From assembly GCA_019428945.1 (NCBI GenBank), contig JAHYJM010000009.1, positions 1 to 48,822 of the forward strand: a stretch of 48,822 nucleotides of DNA, written 5' to 3'. Below are positions 2,187 to 46,700 of this stretch, in pieces. This stretch comes from Bacillota bacterium. Lineage in GTDB: Bacteria; Bacillota; Dethiobacteria; DTU022. The notes beneath the pieces were generated by a model. The model had not been told where the DNA came from, made no database searches, and saw only the letters and a list, made by a program, of their open reading frames with translations. Every line of letters starts with the position of its first letter. Position 1 is the stretch's first letter. A program made the position numbers and the translations under genes.

Positions 2187-3623
2187 ATTAAAAATAAAAA
2201 ATACCTGATCGGTGTCGATGGCGGAACTCAAAGCACCAAAGTTTTAATATTTGATCTCAGGGGAAACATAATCTGTGAGGGCAAAAAAGACTTACAGCCA
2301 ATGAGCCTGCCCGAACCCGGCGTCGTTGAACATCCTGATGACGATCTATGGGATTCCCTGATCATTGCAGCAAAAAAAGCTATGGATGCTTTCCCCGGTC
2401 AAAAAGACGAAATAATCGGCCTTGGACTGTGTACGATTCGCTGCTGCCGCGTATTACTTAAAGCTGATGGTACGCTTGCGTCTCCCGTAATCAGCTGGAT
2501 GGACGCCCGGCTGGCCAGGCCATATGAACATGATAATCCGGATGTCAGTTTTGTAACTACAACCACAGGATATATCACCCATCGCCTTACCGGTGAATTT
2601 AACGATACCGTTGCAAATTACGAAGGTCAATGGCCGATTGACAAGGATACATGGCAGTGGAGCGAGAACCCCGAGGTTTTCAGGCAGTTTAATATATCCC
2701 GGGATATGCTTTTTAACCTGCAGCTACCAGGTACTATAGCCGGATATATTACAAGAGAAGCAGCTGATGCCACCGGAATGCCCGAAGGGCTGCCAGTAGT
2801 TAATACTGCTAACGACAAATCTGTTGAAGCACTTGGCGCCGGACTTTTGCCTGGCCGCACAGCACTTGTCTCTCTTGGAACCTACATCGCTTCAATGGTC
2901 CACGGAAATAAAAATATTAAAGATGCAACCGATTTCTTCACAAACCTTGCCTCTGTTCCTTACCAATACCTGTATGAAAGCGGTGGTATCCGCAGAGGCA
3001 TGTGGACTGTCAGTTGGGTTAAAGAACTGCTTGGGGACGATGCTGCATTAAAAGCAAAAGCTCAAGGGATTTCCACAGAAACTTACCTGAACAATGAGGG
3101 AGAGAAAATTCCCGCTGGTTCTGATGGGCTGATGACAGTGCACGACTGGCTGGCCCGACCGGATATTGCTTACAGGAAAGGTATTTTAATCGGTTTCGAT
3201 GGTCGCCATGGCGGCGCTCATATCTACCGTTCAATCTTAGAAGGTATAGCGCTGACTATGAAAAACCATACTGATGCTATGTGCAGGGAGCTAAATCTCG
3301 ATCTCGATAATATAATTATTTCCGGAGGTGGCTCCAACAGTGATTTGTTTATGAAAATATTTGCTGATGTCTATAACCTTCCGGCGTGTCGGAACGCAGT
3401 CAATGGCGCTGCCGGCCTCGGTTCAGCTATTTGCGCCGCTCTTGCTACCGGTGTTTACCCCGACTACATCAGTGCTATAGAAAATATGGTCAGAATCAGG
3501 GACACTTTTAAACCGAACCACGACAATGCTGCTCTTTACCAGAGAATGAACGAAGAAGTATACAAAGATATTACAAAATATACCGACCAAATATTAAAGA
3601 AGTCATTCCCAATCTTCAAATAG
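2187..3623 (+). CDS. FGGY-family carbohydrate kinase (YgcE-like), likely ATT start
   Basis: The family's N-terminal phosphate loop (YLIGVDGGTQSTKVLIF) is encoded at about 2202-2252, upstream of the first in-frame ATG at 2301. The reading frame is closed by TGA at 2178-2180, and no ATG, GTG or TTG lies between. ATT at 2187 gives the expected MKNKKYLIGVDGG start. It sits 9 nt after AAGGAAGTGA, a near-complete anti-16S match. The resulting 478 residues fit the family (about 490). The kinase-domain Asp lies in ANDKSVEALG, and a C-terminal GGGSNSD loop is present. It phosphorylates a sugar or polyol, probably the product of the preceding dehydrogenase. A sequencing error at the start codon is the alternative. 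Confidence 0.82.
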   Translation: MKNKKYLIGVDGGTQSTKVLIFDLRGNIICEGKKDLQPMSLPEPGVVEHPDDDLWDSLIIAAKKAMDAFPGQKDEIIGLGLCTIRCCRVLLKADGTLASPVISWMDARLARPYEHDNPDVSFVTTTTGYITHRLTGEFNDTVANYEGQWPIDKDTWQWSENPEVFRQFNISRDMLFNLQLPGTIAGYITREAADATGMPEGLPVVNTANDKSVEALGAGLLPGRTALVSLGTYIASMVHGNKNIKDATDFFTNLASVPYQYLYESGGIRRGMWTVSWVKELLGDDAALKAKAQGISTETYLNNEGEKIPAGSDGLMTVHDWLARPDIAYRKGILIGFDGRHGGAHIYRSILEGIALTMKNHTDAMCRELNLDLDNIIISGGGSNSDLFMKIFADVYNLPACRNAVNGAAGLGSAICAALATGVYPDYISAIENMVRIRDTFKPNHDNAALYQRMNEEVYKDITKYTDQILKKSFPIFK

Positions 3624-26829: not shown

Positions 26830-28704
26830 TCAGCTGTTTTTTATATTTCTCGGCCCAATCATTTTTTCAGGCGCCAGGATTTCATCAAGTTCCTCTCTGG
26901 AAAGCAGCTTTTTCTCAAGGACCAAGTCATAAACTCCCCGCCCTGTTTCAAGAGCTTCTTTCGCCAGCCGGGTTGAATCTTCATAACCAAGAACAGGGTT
27001 AAGCGCTGTCACCAAACCGATGCTGTTGTATACCATATTGCGGCAGTGTTCAACGTTGGCCGTAATCCCATCAATACATTTATACTTTAAGGTTGTCATA
27101 CCGTTCTTCAGCATTTCAATCGACTCAAAAATACTTTGTACTATTATAGGCTCCATCACGTTCAGTTCCAGCTGTCCCGCTTCGCCACCCAGGGTTACTG
27201 TTAAGTCATTTCCAATAACTTTAAAAGCAATCTGATTTACCACCTCAGGGATAACGGGATTAACCTTTCCCGGCATAATCGAAGATCCTGGCTGCATTGG
27301 CGGAAGGTTAATCTCATTTAGACCTGTTCTCGGCCCTGAAGAGATAAGCCTCAGGTCGTTCGAAATCTTTGAGAGCTTAACGGCAAGCCTTTTTACTGCC
27401 GATGAATACATCACAAATGAGCCTGTATCCTGTGTGGCTTCGATCAGGTTGTCGGCAAGCTTGATCTCAAGCCCCGTTATTTCCCTCAGATGGTGGATAC
27501 ATTTTTCACTATACCCGGGATCTGCATTTATACCGGTTCCGATTGCTGTTGCCCCCATGTTTACGATGAGGAAAAGTCTGGCATTCTGCAACAACCTGTC
27601 AATCTCTTCGCCAAGCGTAACCGCATAAGCTTCAAAGGCCTGGCCCAATGTCATCGGTACAGCATCCTGAAGTTGTGTCCTGCCCATTTTTAATACATCG
27701 GCAAATTCTACTCCCTTTGCCCTGAAAGAATCGATCAGGGAGCGCAAAACTTCAACCAGCCTGTAATTTGCATTAATTAGCGCTATTTTTATTGCAGTCG
27801 GATACGCATCATTAGTTGATTGAGAAAGATTGACATGGTTGTTAGGGTGACAGTGCTCATACTCTCCCCTGTCGTAACCCATTATTTCCAGGGCTCTGTT
27901 CGCTATAACTTCATTTGCATTCATATTGGTAGAGGTTCCGGCTCCGCCTTGTATCATGTCAACAACAAAGTGAGAATGCAGTTTACCGTTTATAATTTCT
28001 GAACAGGCCTGAACTATAGCATCGTGAACAGGTTTCGGAAGAAGCCCGAGTTCAAAGTTGGCCTTGGCTGCAGCCATTTTAACGGCAGCCAGGGCTTCGA
28101 TGATTACAGGTGAAAAATTCAGCGGGATACCACTTATGTGGAAATTCTCCAGGGCTCTTAATGTCTGAATACCATAATAGTATTCATAGGGCACTTCACG
28201 ATCACCCAATAGATCGTGCTCTACGCGTGTTCGACCTGATTGATACTGTGAAGATATATTTATTCCCCTGGTATTTTCCTGCCTCATACGCCTGGCAATA
28301 ACACGGGCCGCTTTCATCAATACTTTACCGGCAAGCTCAGGCCTTATTTCACTGAGATCATTCAACTTTTCCCTGGTCAGAACAAGAAAACTTGAATTTA
28401 CCAGCGCCCTTGCTGAAGTTGACTGGGGGGAATCATCCATTAATGCTCCCTCATTTAAAAAGTCATACTTGCTGAAAATCGTTATCCGTTTTTTCCCTTC
28501 AAAAGGAGTCGTTTTATTAAGTTCCACTTCCCCTTCATATATAATAAACAGCTTGTTTCTTGGCCCAAACTCCCTGAAGATATATTCATCGGCTTTGTAG
28601 TGCCTCTCTTCTACATACCCGGCAATTACCATTAATTCTTTCTCTGAGAGTGTTTTGAACAGCTCAATTTTTTCAAGGAAAGTACATATTAGTTGATTAT
28701 CCAT
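26830..28704 (-). CDS. Cyclic-nucleotide-binding domain fused to aspartate ammonia-lyase
   Basis: Residues 1 to about 125 of this 624-residue protein form a CNB/Crp-type sensor domain (LFKTLSEKELMVIAGYVEE, then DEYIFREFGPRNKLFIIYEG). From about 155 it is a full fumarase/aspartase enzyme. The aspartase-type residues include QGGAGTSTNMNANEVIANRA and the signature GSSIMPGKVNPVIPEVVNQ. Aspartase deaminates aspartate to fumarate and ammonia. Normal aspartases are about 470 residues and lack the sensor, so a small effector may gate this enzyme. There is no helix-turn-helix. ATG at 28704 follows GGAGG by 5 nt. Confidence 0.9.
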   Translation of the reverse strand: MDNQLICTFLEKIELFKTLSEKELMVIAGYVEERHYKADEYIFREFGPRNKLFIIYEGEVELNKTTPFEGKKRITIFSKYDFLNEGALMDDSPQSTSARALVNSSFLVLTREKLNDLSEIRPELAGKVLMKAARVIARRMRQENTRGINISSQYQSGRTRVEHDLLGDREVPYEYYYGIQTLRALENFHISGIPLNFSPVIIEALAAVKMAAAKANFELGLLPKPVHDAIVQACSEIINGKLHSHFVVDMIQGGAGTSTNMNANEVIANRALEIMGYDRGEYEHCHPNNHVNLSQSTNDAYPTAIKIALINANYRLVEVLRSLIDSFRAKGVEFADVLKMGRTQLQDAVPMTLGQAFEAYAVTLGEEIDRLLQNARLFLIVNMGATAIGTGINADPGYSEKCIHHLREITGLEIKLADNLIEATQDTGSFVMYSSAVKRLAVKLSKISNDLRLISSGPRTGLNEINLPPMQPGSSIMPGKVNPVIPEVVNQIAFKVIGNDLTVTLGGEAGQLELNVMEPIIVQSIFESIEMLKNGMTTLKYKCIDGITANVEHCRNMVYNSIGLVTALNPVLGYEDSTRLAKEALETGRGVYDLVLEKKLLSREELDEILAPEKMIGPRNIKNS

Positions 28705-28795
28705 TACATCCTCCGCTGGTTCATAGTTGTTATTGGTTAATATTGAGAACATATCGATCATATCAAATTAAAAATATTAAGCAAGTCAGGAAATA

Positions 28796-28864: not shown

Positions 28865-30040
28865 TCAGGTAGGCTGCATGACACCAAAGAAAACCAGCCA
28901 GGCTAAGACACTTTTGGCTATCAAGCTTAAAACGATATAACCTCTCTCACCGTATAGATAATCAGCCCATCTGCCAACTTTTCTGTACTGCAAAATCATA
29001 TTAATCGGAAACAGGTTGAAGAAAACAAAATATGAGCCGATTATGGCATAAACAAACCAGGGTACCTCAGCAGGATCGGCATTACCGAGAGCATGCATAA
29101 TAATGATAATCCAGGGGCCTATCCCAGCGATAGAGCCAAAAACAAATGGCGCCCAAACAGTTTTATCTGTGTACTGGTTTAATTTTTCCATCAGCAGGCC
29201 GAACCAGTTCATTGATGCATTCAGGATAAAGATCGCAATTAAAGCGCCAATATCATAAACGCCAAAGAGCATTGCTATAAGAATAATCATCAGGGATGAA
29301 CTTAAAGAATACTCATACCAGCGGAAAACATTAATACCTTTTTTTAGATCACGGTTATAGATTTCATTGGTCTTGGGCATTACAATGATAAAATGTGCCA
29401 GCGCTGAAAGCAGAAGGAAAAATGACACAAAAAGGCCAAAGGGCACTTCTGCAATCTGCTCCGGCCTGGTAACCAGGCGCATAATGTCAGTATTAAACTC
29501 AAGGAAATATGACCAAACCGGGGTTTTGAATGCTTTTACCTGATCAACAGAAAGGGCAATAACCAGCATTGCCATCCCCTGCAAAAAGTGTAATATCCCC
29601 ATGGTCAGGTTAAATCTTTTTAAATAGGCGAAGCTTATCTGCCGAAGTTTTTTCTGCTTTTTACTTCCCTCCAACTCAGCTAGCTTTTGTTTCAGCTCAT
29701 GATGTGATCTCTCCAGTTCCCTGCATCTTTTTGCTTTATCCGGCGTAAGGGGTTTTTCGTCAACCAGGGAACCTTCTATCCATTCACCACTTAACTTTGT
29801 CCCATCCGGCCTGGTGTAAATACCCTGGCCATGACGTTTGCCGGACTCCCACTCTCCGGTATAAATAGAGCCGTCCGGTTTCACCAGAGTTCCCATTCCA
29901 TCCGGTTTGTCATTATGCCACTCACCGGCATACCTGGTTCCGTCAGGTCTTGTCCAGATTCCCTGGCCATGACGCATATTATTCTGCCATTCTCCACTGT
30001 AAACTGCTCCATCAGGATACGTATAATTTTTTTTATTCAT
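28865..30040 (-). CDS. MORN-repeat domain fused to heliorhodopsin
   Basis: This 391-residue protein begins with four MORN repeats (about residues 5-95; units such as YSGEWQNNMRHGQGIW and YTGEWESGKRHGQGIY). A charged, probably coiled-coil linker follows (about 98-132), then seven membrane helices. The membrane part matches heliorhodopsins: RWYEYSLSSSLMIILIAMLF in helix 3 carries the presumed Glu counterion. YIVLSLIAKSVLAWLVF in helix 7 carries the retinal-binding Lys376. Heliorhodopsins have a cytoplasmic N-terminus, so the MORN module would sit inside, perhaps at the membrane. GGAGG precedes the ATG at 30040 by 6 nt. No retinal synthesis gene is in the window. Signalling rather than pumping is the expected role. 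Confidence 0.9.
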   Translation of the reverse strand: MNKKNYTYPDGAVYSGEWQNNMRHGQGIWTRPDGTRYAGEWHNDKPDGMGTLVKPDGSIYTGEWESGKRHGQGIYTRPDGTKLSGEWIEGSLVDEKPLTPDKAKRCRELERSHHELKQKLAELEGSKKQKKLRQISFAYLKRFNLTMGILHFLQGMAMLVIALSVDQVKAFKTPVWSYFLEFNTDIMRLVTRPEQIAEVPFGLFVSFFLLLSALAHFIIVMPKTNEIYNRDLKKGINVFRWYEYSLSSSLMIILIAMLFGVYDIGALIAIFILNASMNWFGLLMEKLNQYTDKTVWAPFVFGSIAGIGPWIIIIMHALGNADPAEVPWFVYAIIGSYFVFFNLFPINMILQYRKVGRWADYLYGERGYIVLSLIAKSVLAWLVFFGVMQPT

Positions 30041-30114
30041 CATAAACCTCCCTGTCGAATATACTTTAATATGAATTCCCGGTTGCTGCCCATTAATTTG
30101 GCGGCCTCATTTCC

Positions 30115-31916: not shown

Positions 31917-32987
31917 CTACAGTGAAGTGGTGAAGCCTAAAATATAGCGCATGATTAATGTTACATCCAAAACATCGATTACACCATCACGATTAACATC
32001 TGCAGGCACCAATTGACCATAATCAAGTTCCCTAACTTTCAGGACATGCTGCATGACCAGTGTAACATCCCTTACATCTACAATTCCATTACCGATGACA
32101 TCACCATATTTAATATCTGGCAATTGAATCTGCTCCGGCAGATAATCCGGATCAGATTCAACCGGTGGTTCATTTTCAGCAGAAGTTTCAGGAAGAGGTG
32201 GCGGTGAAGGATCGATCAAACCGGTAGTTTCCAGGTAAGTTTCAGCCAACCAGCCGAATTTAACCTCCCCTTCAAGCTCAATCGCCGCGTACCACCAGTA
32301 ATGATACGATGACAGGCTGCCCGGCTGGGAAGCATAGATTCCGTTGCTTATATGCTCCCGGATCTGAACAACTGTGTCTCTTGGAAGCGCAACGGGAAGC
32401 TGGTTTGCGCCTTCAAGGCGAAAATTCAAGTTGTTGACAGTTGTCCTGACATGCTCGCCATGAAAATATAGTCCTGACTTTTCCCGGCTCAGAGGAACTG
32501 ATATAAAAGCAGTCGGCCAGATACTGCTTCCCGGACTAATTTGCTTTACATTATATGCACTGCTGCTGCTGCTTGAATCGGAAACAAGAATAGCGCCATC
32601 TTCCCTGACAGCTTCGACTACCCCGACATGCCCCAACCTGCTGCCATAATAAACACCACTATCCCAGAAAGCAATCGTCCCCGGCGCTGCAGTTTCAGAT
32701 ACGGTCGCCCCTCTGGAGGCATTATATGCCCAGGTATTCGCATTAAAGCGCATGCTGTCCAATGCATATTTACAATAACCAAGCTGCATCATTCGTCCAT
32801 GTGTATACCAGGTACAATTATTGCCTTTACTTGGGAAAAAATTGAAAACCGTATATTCCGGAAGCCAGGGCCAGCGATCAAATTCTTCCCTGGTAAGAGG
32901 AGTATAACCCTCAAATGAGGATGCTGAAGAGGTCAGCAAAAGCAGTATAAATGTAAGGATTATCGCAACCCTGCAAGTTTTCTTCAT
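31917..32987 (-). CDS. Secreted CHAP-domain amidase/peptidase with C-terminal dockerin
   Basis: This protein of about 356 residues has a signal peptide and a CHAP domain with the catalytic Cys in NNCTWYTHGR and His in LGHVGVVEAV. An SH3-like region around HYWWYAAIELEGEVKFGWLA follows, then a proline-rich linker (DPSPPPLPETS) and two dockerin type I repeats at the C-terminus. The second repeat (DVNRDGVIDVLDVTLIM) has a full calcium loop; the first (DVIGNGIVDVRDVTLVM) has lost key Asp residues. It probably cleaves peptidoglycan peptides and docks to a cohesin-bearing scaffold. The start among three near codons is uncertain because none has a good ribosome site. Confidence 0.85.
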   Translation of the reverse strand: MKKTCRVAIILTFILLLLTSSASSFEGYTPLTREEFDRWPWLPEYTVFNFFPSKGNNCTWYTHGRMMQLGYCKYALDSMRFNANTWAYNASRGATVSETAAPGTIAFWDSGVYYGSRLGHVGVVEAVREDGAILVSDSSSSSSAYNVKQISPGSSIWPTAFISVPLSREKSGLYFHGEHVRTTVNNLNFRLEGANQLPVALPRDTVVQIREHISNGIYASQPGSLSSYHYWWYAAIELEGEVKFGWLAETYLETTGLIDPSPPPLPETSAENEPPVESDPDYLPEQIQLPDIKYGDVIGNGIVDVRDVTLVMQHVLKVRELDYGQLVPADVNRDGVIDVLDVTLIMRYILGFTTSL

Positions 32988-33133
32988 TGGCATCAATTTA
33001 ATTAACCCGGATTGCCGGTAGCCCGGACTAATTTTCTCCCCGTACTATTATCTGTATATATTTATACCATTATACATAATTTCATAAAAATTGCAACATC
33101 TGCAGTTCATTTCCAGCTTGATATTTCAATCCT

Positions 33134-40831: not shown

Positions 40832-42205
40832 TCAGTTTACTTTTTCCATAAACCTGCGAACCGAGTTAAGTTCAAGATTAAGAAGCTTACCAATATTCAT
40901 CTTAGCCTGGATCCCTCTCGCTTTGCCATGGTGAGATACAACACGGCCGATATTTAAATCATCCCTGACTTCGTTCATGATTACTTCATCGGCTAAATCC
41001 CTTGTTGATACCTTAAGCTTACCTGCAACATATTTTTTTGCTTCCCCTACTCGCATTCCGGTCATTTGCATGCGCGCTACCAGATCTCCGGCGGTGCGCA
41101 AACCACCCATGCCCGATGCCAGTGTGTGTGTAGCAATCATTCCGCAAAAATCGCCTGTGCCTACCTATAATCCATCAGCTTTACCCACCTCAGCCATGGC
41201 CACTGATACCCTGCTGACCACATCAACAGGAAGAACTTCAACCGTAGTCACTCCGCCGACACCTAACCCGACATTGGGATGGACAGGAATATTGGCCGCT
41301 TCCACACAGGCTCTGCAGTAGGTCACGGCTCGGGCAAGGTTAAAAGCAAATGATTTTTTGCTGTTGTTGTTTATAACCGGTCCAAAAATGGTTACCCCTG
41401 CTTTCTCAGCCAGTTTTACCTGCTCATGGGGGTAAAGTCCGGCCAGCCGCACTCCATCATATGTTAGCCTGCCGTGCATTCCCAGTACAAATTCCCCAGC
41501 CATGCCCATCTCTATACAAATGTCCGGATATTTTTCTTTAAGTATTTCAGCTGCTTTAAGAGCAGCATAGAAGTCTGCATCACCAGCCGCTCCGGTAGTA
41601 TCGAAATCAATACCCTCCGCCCCGCCTTCATACATTTCACTCGCTACATAAACGAGGTCTTTGATACAATATTCAGCTGCTTCCTCCTGGGCGTCTCTCG
41701 ACTCGCCGATCTTACCCTGTGGCAGCAATTCCGCCCAATTATGTACCGGTCCGTCAGGGCGGCTGTAACGGCCAAGATCGGGCATGGCGCCGTAAAAAAG
41801 AGGTATCGTAAGCAAATGTGATGCCTGCTCCACCCAGGATCGCTCTTCAGTTGCTACAGTTTTAACCGCCTTATAACTGTAATCTATAAAACCTGATTCA
41901 GCCGTATCCATCCCACAAACCCTTTCATAAGTCTGAAGCATTTGCAGGCGGTTAACCGAAAACCCCCGGGGAACCGAACCGATTGAAGGAGAATCACCGG
42001 TCATAATGATCTCATTGCCCTTTTCTACTCCTACCATTTTACCCGGCCTTGTGCAAATCTCATACAACCTGTCAAGATCTTCTGATCTCAGCGGAGCTAT
42101 TTTCCCTCTGTCAGAGGCATCTTCCATGCCGGCCTGTAAATCTTCTTTAATTTTTGATCCATCAACTTCTATCAACTCTCCATCGCCAAACCTTGTTAAT
42201 ACCAT
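40832..42205 (-). CDS. mtbB: Dimethylamine corrinoid methyltransferase MtbB with in-frame UAG (pyrrolysine)
   Basis: Two open segments (42205-41168 and 41164-40832) in the same frame are separated by one TAG at 41167-41165. Together they give a 457-residue MtbB-family protein. The sequence reads [14 protein letters not shown], then the amber codon, then [20 protein letters not shown] and [11 protein letters not shown], as in archaeal MtbB. There, pyrrolysine occupies the equivalent site (residue 356 in Methanosarcina; 347 here). MtbB transfers a methyl group from dimethylamine to a corrinoid protein. ATG at 42205 has AGGTGA 6 nt upstream. No corrinoid protein, reactivase or pyl genes are in the window. 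Termination at the UAG would leave a truncated 346-residue product. Confidence 0.9.
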
Positions 42206-42525
42206 AACCACTCACCTTTCATTTAAATTTCTTAATTTTCATAAAGCAGAAATTAATTGCCCGCCTTAAAAGTTACTTAATATTGATCTGTTGAATAGAT
42301 ACGCGGCCTAAAAAGATCTTGTTGAAAACCCTGGATACAAGAGCAATACCATTATACACAATATATATTATCCTGGTTAAGACAATACCGGAAATGTTAT
42401 GACTTTATCCGTTTGCATAAAATGAAGGTGTTTTCAACTTTTGGCAGAATTTACTTACGATCGGATTAAGTTTACTGTTTGGAAAGCTAAGCAGAATATG
42501 TTAGTTAATAAGGCTGCGAGGAGAC
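42206..42525. other. Divergent intergenic region with no firm features
   Basis: This 320-bp AT-rich gap lies between the mtbB-like and MORN-ABC genes, transcribed apart. It must hold promoters for both, but I found no pair of hexamers with acceptable match and spacing. No sigma-54 site, no copy of the 34-nt antitermination leader and no small ORF with a ribosome site were seen. Confidence 0.5.
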
Positions 42526-43776
42526 ATGTTCCCCATGGATAAGAAAGAGAGAACCGGAGAAAAACAGGTTATACCCTGGGCAGGCGGCAAATACGGCGGA
42601 CAATTAAAAAACAATGTTCCCCATGGTCTTGGCAAATTACTGATGCCGGATGGTACAAAATATGACGGTGAATGGATAGAAGGTAAACCACAGGGAAGAG
42701 GGATTCTCATCTATGCAAAAGGAGCAGTTTACCGGGGAGAATTTTCTGAAGGTAAAAAACATGGGTATGGCCAATATGTCCAGCCCGATGGGACCATCAT
42801 CAAAGGTAGATGGAATAAGGGAAAATTTTTGGATACACTTGAATCCCTGCAAAAAGGATCTGCTATTTTAAGGAATACATCGGGCAGAGATGTAATCAGG
42901 ATCAAATCTTTATACTTTACCTACAAAAGCGGTAAAGGAATATTCGATATAAATTTTAACGTTAAAAACGGAGAGGTATTTGGCTTTCTCGGACCCAATG
43001 GCGCTGGAAAAACAACAACAATCCGTAACCTGCTCGGATTTACCAAGCCGGACAGTGGAATCTGCACAATTAACGGACTGAATTGTTGGAAAAACGCAGC
43101 GGAAATACAGGGCGAACTTGGGTATCTGCCCGGTGAAATGGCATTTTTTGATGAGATGAGCGGCATACAATTTTTTAACCTGATCGGCGACTTAAGAGGA
43201 AAACGGGGTAATTCCCGCCGTGATGCCCTGATCGATAGATTCGAGCTTGACCCGTCAGGCAGAATTCGTCGCATGTCCAAGGGTATGAAGCAGAAACTGG
43301 GTATTGTAACTGCATTTATGCACGACCCTGCAGTATATATATTGGATGAGCCGACCAGCGGACTTGACCCTTTGATGCAGAATATCTTTGTGGAGCTGAT
43401 CCTTGAAGAAAAAGAACGGGGCAAAACAATCCTCATGTCATCTCACAACTTTGAAGAAACCTACCGCACCTGTGACCGAGCCGGGATTATCCGGGAAGGC
43501 CGCCTGGTTGCTCTTGAGGACGTGCATTCACTGAAATCATCTCAGCGCAAGGCGTACCTGGTTACGCTGGGCAGAAAAGAAGACCTTGAACACTTGCGCT
43601 CAGCCGGTCTTGAGATCGGCCGGATCAGTAAAAATACGGTTGAAGTATATGTATCAGGTAATTATGATCAGTTTATTTCCGCCCTGGCCGGGTGCAAAGT
43701 ACTCGGGATTGAAGTTGCCACACAGAGCCTTGAACAGGTATTCCTAAAATATTACGGCCAGGAGGCTTCTTTCTAA
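42526..43776 (+). CDS. MORN-repeat domain fused to ABC transporter ATPase
   Basis: The first roughly 100 of 416 residues hold three to four MORN repeats (YGGQLKNNVPHGLGKL, YDGEWIEGKPQGRGIL, YRGEFSEGKKHGYGQY). A complete ABC-2-type ATPase follows: Walker A GPNGAGKTTT, signature RMSKGMKQKLGIV, Walker B AVYILDEPTSGLDP and switch His in SSHNFEE. The C-terminal tail resembles CcmA-like exporters. The ATG at 42526 has GAGG 4 nt upstream; ATG at 42535 is possible. Its permease partner overlaps by 1 nt. The MORN units resemble those on the heliorhodopsin at 28865-30040, suggesting a shared way of tethering to lipid or protein. Confidence 0.9.
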   Translation: MFPMDKKERTGEKQVIPWAGGKYGGQLKNNVPHGLGKLLMPDGTKYDGEWIEGKPQGRGILIYAKGAVYRGEFSEGKKHGYGQYVQPDGTIIKGRWNKGKFLDTLESLQKGSAILRNTSGRDVIRIKSLYFTYKSGKGIFDINFNVKNGEVFGFLGPNGAGKTTTIRNLLGFTKPDSGICTINGLNCWKNAAEIQGELGYLPGEMAFFDEMSGIQFFNLIGDLRGKRGNSRRDALIDRFELDPSGRIRRMSKGMKQKLGIVTAFMHDPAVYILDEPTSGLDPLMQNIFVELILEEKERGKTILMSSHNFEETYRTCDRAGIIREGRLVALEDVHSLKSSQRKAYLVTLGRKEDLEHLRSAGLEIGRISKNTVEVYVSGNYDQFISALAGCKVLGIEVATQSLEQVFLKYYGQEASF

Positions 43777-44576
43777 TGAGTTTTTCTCTATTCAAAGCCA
43801 CCGCTAAATCAAACTGGCTTATTTTCCTGATTTTCTTCGCTATCCTGCTAATGTACATGACCGTTATGGTTGGCATGTATGATCCGGACAGTATCGAAGC
43901 AATGAATCAATTTATTGAGGCGATGCCGCAGGGAATGATGGAAGCCTTCGGTTACGGTGATACAGCGACCAGCCTGGCAACTTTCATGGCTCTTTACTAT
44001 TATGGATTTATCATAATTATTTTTCCTCTTATTTATTGTATTATCCTGGCGAACCGGTTGGTGGCTGCGCTGGTTGATCGCGGTTCCATGGCTTACCTGC
44101 TGGCCACACCCAATACACGGGTAAAAATTATTACTACCCTGGCCGTTTATATGGCCGCAAGTATTACATTACTATTACTCATTAATACAGGAATCGGACT
44201 GGCGTTAAGTGAATCCATGTTCCCCGGAGAAATGGACATACCTGCCTTTTTAAAGCTCAATCTGGCTGCTATCTTATTAACCCTGGCGATCAGTTCAATC
44301 TGCTTCTTTTTTTCCTGCATTTTCCATGAAACTAAGTACTCACTGGCTTTTGGCGGCGGCATACCCATTCTCTTCTTTATAATTAATATGCTGAGAAATA
44401 TCGGGGGCAGTAATCAGTGGCTCAAATATTTGACACTTTATTCCCTCTTTGACGCAAATGCAATTGTTACCGGAGAACAATCCATTATAACTTTATGCCT
44501 CGTTTCAGCTGCCATATTCCTTGCTCTTTATGGGGTAGGTATTATTATTTTCAGCCGCCGTAATTTATATTTATAA
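43776..44576 (+). CDS. ABC-2 type transporter permease
   Basis: This 266-residue protein has six membrane helices, with the large extracytoplasmic segment after helix 1 (DPDSIEAMNQFIEAMPQGMM) usual for ABC-2 permeases. The start codon overlaps the ATPase stop in a TAATG arrangement, so the two are translationally coupled and form one exporter. The substrate is unknown. Confidence 0.88.
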   Translation: MSFSLFKATAKSNWLIFLIFFAILLMYMTVMVGMYDPDSIEAMNQFIEAMPQGMMEAFGYGDTATSLATFMALYYYGFIIIIFPLIYCIILANRLVAALVDRGSMAYLLATPNTRVKIITTLAVYMAASITLLLLINTGIGLALSESMFPGEMDIPAFLKLNLAAILLTLAISSICFFFSCIFHETKYSLAFGGGIPILFFIINMLRNIGGSNQWLKYLTLYSLFDANAIVTGEQSIITLCLVSAAIFLALYGVGIIIFSRRNLYL

Positions 44577-45272: not shown

Positions 45273-46700
45273 CTATTCCGGATTATACTGCGGCAGGAGA
45301 TATTCTTTCCTTATTTCTTTGAAGCTTTTAATATCCGGGGTAAACAGCGCTTCTATTTCCTGCGGACTAAGGCCTTCTTCCAGATATTCTCCCATCTTTG
45401 CAGTGCCCATGATCAGATCGAACATAACATTTGTTTCATTACTTTTGGGGATATTAAAATCAGCCAGGGAAAATGCATAGGTGAGGGCATAAATACCGGT
45501 ACGGGCTGGACTAAAAAGGTGGTAGTCGGTTATCTTCAACCTGACACCGCCAGCCTCCCCTCTTCTTTCAGGAATAAACTCGATTCCGGTTAAACCGGCA
45601 TCATTAAGTATTGAGGCATATTCATTTTCATCAAGCCCTCTGCCGCCAATCCACTTAAACTGATCTGCCTGGAACACCCCTGTATTCTCACCCAGACCTG
45701 TTGTCATATATCCAAAAACAGAATCTATGTCAGGAATATTCGGCGAGGTTTGAACCCAGGAAAGTCCCGTGTCCTGGAAAATCATCGAGCGATCATATCC
45801 TTCCATGGGAACTACAGTTAAATCAGCATTTATATTACGGTTGAAGTATTGGCCCAGTTCGCCTGCAGTCATGCCGTGGGCCATAGGCAGTATATCAACC
45901 CCTACAAATGATTTAAAGCGTTCCTCCATCATCGGACCATCAACAATAAGCCCGCCCAGTGGATTGGGACGATCAAGAATAACTACAGGAATATTGTATT
46001 TTTCAGCGGCAACCATGCAATAGTTGAGGGTGGATATATAGGTATAAGAACGTGCTCCGATATCCTGAATATCATAAATTAGCAGATCAATGCCGCTGAG
46101 CATCTCCCCGGTAGGCATCCTTGTTTTACCATACAGGCTGTAAACAGGAATGCCCAGTTCCGGATGAGTGTAAGATTCCACATATTCACCGGCGGCAGCC
46201 TTCCCGTCTATTCCGTGCTCGGGGCCATAGAGAGCAACCAATTCCACATATGATGATTTATGCAGCAAATCGATGGTGCTTTCTCCCCTGCTGTTTACAC
46301 CACTTTGATTTGTAACAAGGCCAACTTTTTTACCCTGAACCAGGTAACGCATTTTTTCAAACAGCACTTCGCTACCCAGTTTAAACTCTTGATCAGTTTG
46401 ATCAATCAATTCGAGCGATACCTGCATCAACCTGGTTACATCTCTCACATCAACAATACCATCACCATTTAAATCAGCAGCTTTCAGCTGATCATCAGTC
46501 AGATTACGCAGATTCAAAACATATTTCATTACCGCTACAACATCCCTTACATCAACTTTGCCGTCTTCATTAACGTCGCCGGGGTTGATCACTGGGGCAC
46601 ATGCAGCAGGAAATGAGAGCAAAAATATAGTTACTATACTTATCGCTATTATAACTATTGCCAGGCCTGTTTTACTCCTTGTTCTGTTTAAATATGGCAT
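45273..46700 (-). CDS. Secreted dockerin-NamZ protein (DUF1343, exo-beta-N-acetylmuramidase type)
   Basis: This 475-residue protein has an N-terminal signal sequence and then two dockerin type I repeats (GDVNEDGKVDVRDVVAVM and ADLNGDGIVDVRDVTRLM, both with intact calcium loops). A DUF1343/NamZ catalytic domain begins near residue 105. Hallmarks are KVGLVTNQSGVN, ALYGPEHGI, IYDIQDIGARSYTY and ILDRPNPLGG. NamZ (GH171) releases N-acetylmuramic acid from peptidoglycan fragments. GAGG lies 8 nt before the ATG. An N-terminal dockerin on this enzyme is unusual and parallels the CHAP-dockerin protein at 31917-32987. Confidence 0.88.
   Translation of the reverse strand: MPYLNRTRSKTGLAIVIIAISIVTIFLLSFPAACAPVINPGDVNEDGKVDVRDVVAVMKYVLNLRNLTDDQLKAADLNGDGIVDVRDVTRLMQVSLELIDQTDQEFKLGSEVLFEKMRYLVQGKKVGLVTNQSGVNSRGESTIDLLHKSSYVELVALYGPEHGIDGKAAAGEYVESYTHPELGIPVYSLYGKTRMPTGEMLSGIDLLIYDIQDIGARSYTYISTLNYCMVAAEKYNIPVVILDRPNPLGGLIVDGPMMEERFKSFVGVDILPMAHGMTAGELGQYFNRNINADLTVVPMEGYDRSMIFQDTGLSWVQTSPNIPDIDSVFGYMTTGLGENTGVFQADQFKWIGGRGLDENEYASILNDAGLTGIEFIPERRGEAGGVRLKITDYHLFSPARTGIYALTYAFSLADFNIPKSNETNVMFDLIMGTAKMGEYLEEGLSPQEIEALFTPDIKSFKEIRKEYLLPQYNPE

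Follow-up and report, generated by a model that had tools for sequence, protein, structure and literature searches.

A MORN-heliorhodopsin from a Dethiobacteria genome and the parallel fusion of MORN repeats to a second heliorhodopsin

The function of heliorhodopsins (HeRs) is largely open, and a HeR gene fused to MORN repeats raises the question of what the additional module does for a putative light sensor. We have addressed this question in a stretch of 48,822 nucleotides of the Bacillota contig JAHYJM010000009.1, hereafter called the window. The preliminary description of this DNA had suspected that such fusions were already published, and this is the case. The main text of Bulzu et al. 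(2021; PMC8612252) describes 36 MORN-HeRs, typically with three repeats and restricted to haloalkaliphilic Dethiobacteria, and proposes for the MORN part either dimer stabilisation (or lipid anchoring) or interaction with other MORN proteins. The window protein belongs to this class: it has at least three N-terminal MORN repeats in one ORF, and its host falls within the Dethiobacteria/"Syntrophomonadaceae" clade of soda-lake MAGs. The fusion class is not new. The window protein shares with the published MORN-HeRs the N-terminal position of the repeats, the haloalkaliphilic Firmicutes MAG clade and a host genome that encodes further MORN proteins, but has four repeats instead of the typical three. 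The same paper reports Znf-HeRs, which likewise carry a cytoplasmic N-terminal module; there, however, the module is a zinc ribbon and the hosts are Thermoplasmatales archaea. The main text, taken apart from the supplements, mentions no second independent fusion, ABC donor, zipper heptads or missing retinal pathway. What the present analysis adds as a new and testable point is the parallel fusion, for which a donor could be identified.

Architecture and conservation of the window fusion

The coordinates of the fusion and of the genes discussed with it are given in Table 1. The ORF opens with two adjacent ATG codons, the second of which is at position 30040. Its N-terminal part matched the Pfam MORN family (PF02493) with E=6.6e-23, three stretches passing individually. 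The copies can be recognised in the sequence as Y15SGEW, Y38AGEW, Y61TGEW and a fourth, L84SGEW, which forms paired strands in the AlphaFold2 (AF2) model. The membrane part had been predicted to be a full HeR, and the profiles agreed: PF18761 aligned to residues 141-389 over its whole length (profile positions 1-242 of 242, E=6.6e-100) with 333.9 bits, for a cut-off of 26.7 bits, and the NCBIfam HeR equivalog NF038020 scored 316 bits, for a cut-off of 100 bits. The expected helix-7 lysine and helix-3 glutamate were found as K377 and E244, the latter corresponding to E107 of 48C12. When compared by phmmer with solved proteins, the membrane part retrieved 48C12 and other HeRs, and the N-terminus retrieved MORN1 and radial-spoke proteins.

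Table 1. Features of the window that bear on the MORN-HeR
Feature	Coordinates	Strand	Basis
MORN-HeR ORF, 392 aa (span includes the stop)	28865..30043	-	Pfam and NCBIfam matches, orthologues
Four MORN repeats, residues 14-93	29765..30004	-	Pfam MORN, AF2 beta hairpins, Foldseek to MORN1 structures
Linker helix, residues 101-132	29648..29743	-	AF2, one helix, pLDDT about 60-74, uncertain
Leucine-zipper-like heptads C107-L110-H114-L117-L121-L124	29672..29725	-	a/d statistics over 13 orthologues
HeR 7-TM domain, residues 136-392	28868..29638	-	Pfam, alignment, Foldseek 6is6 TMt 0.93
Lys377, predicted retinal-binding lysine of helix 7	28913..28915	-	Aligned to 48C12
Glu244, predicted helix-3 Schiff-base counterion	29312..29314	-	Aligned to 48C12
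CHAP amidase-dockerin, recurrent MORN-HeR neighbour	31917..32996	-	7/11 sister loci
MORN-tagged ABC exporter ATPase, 416 aa, candidate partner	42526..43776	+	MORN module homologous to second-fusion donor
ABC-2 permease directly after the ATPase	43776..44576	+	Gene order

The AF2 model of the protein (mean pLDDT 88.7) comprises a MORN beta-sheet, a helix at residues 101-132 (modest confidence) and a seven-helix domain with the HeR fold, including the beta strands of the A-B loop. Foldseek searches with this model returned MORN1 crystal structures and TaHeR (6is6; TM 0.93 by target, E=1.3e-18, 41% identity). The MORN domains of TbMORN1 and junctophilin (PDB 6t4r and 7rw4) have the same beta-sheet fold; unlike the window module, they are eukaryotic, form longer arrays and are not fused to a rhodopsin. 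A Lys/Arg-rich stretch, KKQKKLR, precedes helix 1 and, according to the positive-inside rule, would place the N-terminus in the cytoplasm, in line with the inverted topology of HeRs. These results confirmed that the window protein is an intact MORN-HeR fusion encoded by one ORF.

An assembly join within the linker had been named as an observation that would speak against the fusion. Such a join is ruled out by orthologues of full length, found in 12 further genomes of the host's order and 68-92% identical along almost the entire protein; among their named records, which include soda-lake MAGs, 9 of 11 are Syntrophomonadaceae MAGs, and a genome search gave family-level kinship to the host. Since dS is saturated in more distant pairs, dN/dS is given solely for the closest one, the window protein and L029 (dS about 0.5), with values of 0.12 (MORN part), 0.09 (linker) and 0.04 (HeR). 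By this codon-based estimate, purifying selection acts on the MORN part, and conservation is strong for the HeR core with its Lys and Glu (dN/dS about 0.04).

In the aligned orthologues, the linker follows the consensus C-x2-L-x3-N/H-x2-L-x3-L/I/V-x2-L. Counting A and C as hydrophobic, 77% of the residues at a/d positions are hydrophobic vs 13% elsewhere (13 orthologues; column permutation P=0.0005), and the core has an Asn at one position in 8/13 and a Cys at another in 10/13. Such a pattern would mark the linker as a short dimeric zipper of the parallel type. The zipper is missing in L011, degenerate in L019 and absent from the second fusion described below.

Outside this clade, one apparent MORN-HeR (L090, matched by query residues 37-391) was discarded as a spurious match: its HeR ORF begins just before helix 1, and translation of the DNA upstream of it gives a methylated-DNA cysteine methyltransferase-like ORF. 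In 399 genomes drawn evenly from the phylum, nine other HeRs exceeded the cut-off, and their frames of 257-288 aa are too short for fusions. The viral contigs searched contained no MORN-HeR. A type-1 MORN-HeR very close to that of G033 lies on a 3.3-kb contig of G063, a genome of a different family (L017/L155), reflecting either transfer or bin contamination. Two Thermotogota HeRs without MORN (L040 and L041) adjoin or fall inside the type-1 MORN-HeR group in the tree, a placement that would be compatible with inter-phylum transfer, with or without MORN loss (p-AU 0.28 for the MORN-loss question). HeR remnants were found in G004 and G010 (L157:4147-4370 and L156:4098-4160), so the HeR is being lost in some relatives.

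Independent capture of a MORN module by a second heliorhodopsin

Another genome of the same family, G007, encodes a divergent HeR with N-terminal MORN repeats (L024/L152, 377 aa; 44% identity in the HeR), for which AF2 predicted a MORN sheet and a HeR (mean pLDDT 87.1). Its near-twin in G011 (L023/L153), 91% identical over the HeR domain, has no MORN. A single origin of both fusions was rejected by AU tests on either part of the protein: placing the 13 type-1 fusions and the G007 protein in one clade of the HeR tree lowered the log-likelihood by 284 (p-AU 0.0002), and a single clade of HeR-borne modules was rejected in the MORN tree (p-AU 1.2e-5). The G007 module shares 80% identity with the N-terminal part of a MORN-ABC ATPase of G005 and about 49% with the module of the window HeR.

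The origin of the G007 gene could be followed at the DNA level along its contig (C1). Positions 2109-2922 correspond to the plain G011 gene, HeR2 (86%), positions 2954-3302 to the beginning of the MORN-ABC gene of G005 together with about 38 bp preceding its start (82%), and positions 3390-3595 to the first part of an SDR gene, the neighbour of HeR2 in G011 (71.6%), this SDR start being degraded in G007. According to these matches, the MORN segment lies within the HeR-SDR locus, and its junction with the HeR corresponds to about residue 4 of the plain HeR2. Because the segment lies between HeR2 and the degraded SDR start, and the longest run common to both parents near the junction is 8 bp, an assembly chimera seems unlikely; a misassembly would need two joins. 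Taken together, the trees and the DNA matches show, at the sequence level, that a second HeR captured MORN independently, with a MORN-ABC ATPase gene as donor. Small MORN membrane proteins are the nearest relatives of the module in the window HeR, whose donor was thus a different one. Parallel MORN capture by two unrelated HeRs is independent evidence that the module serves the light sensor.

MORN-tagged proteins as candidate partners

MORN proteins are abundant in 33 of the 43 family genomes; the genome of the window alone gave 49 repeat matches. They comprise kinase-like, small membrane, lipoprotein-like and MORN-only proteins. The Ser/Thr-kinase-like proteins with MORN repeats at L136 and L144 (genomes G002 and G034) are another MORN-tagged signalling protein. 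The window itself encodes a MORN-ABC ATPase, for which drrA is the best NCBIfam match, below the cut-off of that family. This operon is 12 kb from the HeR, and in the sister genome G014 the two are on one contig, about 11 kb apart. The linkage was seen only in the genus of the window; elsewhere the genes are not consistently adjacent. No strong MORN-ABC match was found in the HeR1 genomes G001, G003 and G034 (73-86% complete), many MORN-ABC genomes have no HeR, and G011 and G012 are MORN-rich, yet have plain HeRs.

The preliminary description held that MORN modules bind lipids or proteins. The protein side of this claim stands, as the solved MORN1 proteins are protein-protein modules; the lipid side is doubtful as a general rule, TbMORN1 having bound neither membranes nor vesicles (PMC7725318). 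An association between a HeR and an exporter has a precedent in OcHeR-OmrDE, in which an ABC multidrug transporter is bound by an actinobacterial HeR and becomes more active in the light (PMC11109279). The two cases are alike in a HeR bound to, and modulating by light, an ABC exporter, which was shown there and is proposed here from the genes. They differ in that OcHeR-OmrDE involves no fusion and no MORN, and that its transporter is a heterodimeric multidrug transporter of an ABC type different from MORN-ABC.

Our best reading, which we hold tentatively, is that the window protein is a HeR light sensor whose MORN and zipper docking module brings it into complexes with MORN-tagged membrane proteins, likeliest the MORN-ABC exporters, and that light changes the activity of the partner. 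The cytoplasmic N-terminus would be a protein-docking module in which a short zipper-like helix follows four MORN repeats. Through MORN and zipper, the rhodopsin would be kept dimeric and bound to further MORN-tagged proteins of its host cell, the candidate MORN-ABC exporter being the most plausible of them. On isomerisation of a retinal acquired from outside the cell, the linker would move together with helix 1, and this movement would alter partner activity. An exporter leads the list of candidates, since the tag of one HeR stems from such a protein, and it is a concrete partner to consider. That light alters a membrane-associated complex, as had been suggested at the outset, is plausible. 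A more far-reaching version is unlikely: MORN would be an address tag shared in the family, HeRs would have been recruited to it twice (once via the tag of an ABC exporter ATPase), and sensing by scavenged retinal would directly gate MORN-tagged ABC exporters in an anaerobe unable to make retinal.

The proposal of Bulzu et al. offers the strongest alternative, namely that MORN and zipper only stabilise the HeR dimer or anchor it to lipids under haloalkaline conditions, with no dedicated signalling partner. HeRs are dimers (PMC8612252), and the linker heptads are of the dimer type, with the core Asn in 8/13 orthologues. However, MORN is absent from other haloalkaline HeRs (from Alkalibacterium and from same-lake Thermotogota; L040, L054 and others), the second fusion lacks a zipper, and the behaviour of TbMORN1 with vesicles argues against an anchor; we consider this alternative somewhat unlikely.

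Neighbouring genes and retinal supply

The MORN-HeR could instead signal to the product of a neighbouring gene, a CHAP peptidoglycan amidase or a DUF3159 membrane protein, and thus couple light to cell-wall turnover. The CHAP gene is beside the HeR in 7/11 sister loci (6-33 bp downstream in L033, L037 and L039), and the DUF3159 gene is beside the type-1 MORN-HeR in most of them. Nevertheless, the CHAP protein seems to be secreted, given its signal-peptide-like N-terminus, while the MORN module is expected in the cytoplasm; the gene order differs in the window; in G010 the CHAP gene persists beside a HeR remnant; and shared ancestry alone can explain the synteny. We consider signalling to these neighbours very unlikely.

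The chromophore source in a probable anaerobe is a question raised by the missing retinal pathway. The preliminary description had proposed a search of the genome for carotenoid cleavage genes. Carotenoid and retinal synthesis genes were sought in the genome and its family, and none was found: the 43 family genomes, HeR-bearing ones included, contain neither phytoene synthase (PF00494; control positive in 7/14) nor carotenoid oxygenase (PF03055; control positive in 2/14). BCD (PF15461) was likewise not detected, but the control was silent too, and this result is uninformative alone. Thus, either retinal is scavenged from outside or the protein works without it. A retinal-free scaffold working in the dark, the rhodopsin being a relic, would fit these absences and the HeR remnants in G004 and G010. 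However, a relic would not be expected to keep its Lys, Glu and HeR core so strongly conserved. A conserved retinal site would favour a scavenged chromophore, and we regard the relic as highly improbable. Equally hard to credit is the idea that MORN acts as transducer in a sensory rhodopsin coupled to a histidine kinase: kinase genes are reported near some MORN-HeRs (PMC8612252), but the scanned window proteins gave no HisKA match and included no adjacent kinase or transducer, the nearest regulator being a PAS/sigma-54 activator about 12 kb off.

Three further features of the window were recorded. The next gene after the HeR (26830-28761, minus strand) encodes an aspartase/fumarase-type lyase with an N-terminal cyclic-nucleotide-binding domain, and this unusual cNMP-lyase fusion is also beside the HeR in L037 and L039. 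The CHAP amidase and a NamZ muramidase (45273-46700) carry dockerin type I domains, cellulosome-like docking parts on wall hydrolases. Finally, a dimethylamine methyltransferase gene (Dimeth_PyL; 40832-42211, minus strand) has an in-frame TAG at codon 349; read through as pyrrolysine, it gives one protein of 459 aa, and the host therefore probably decodes pyrrolysine.
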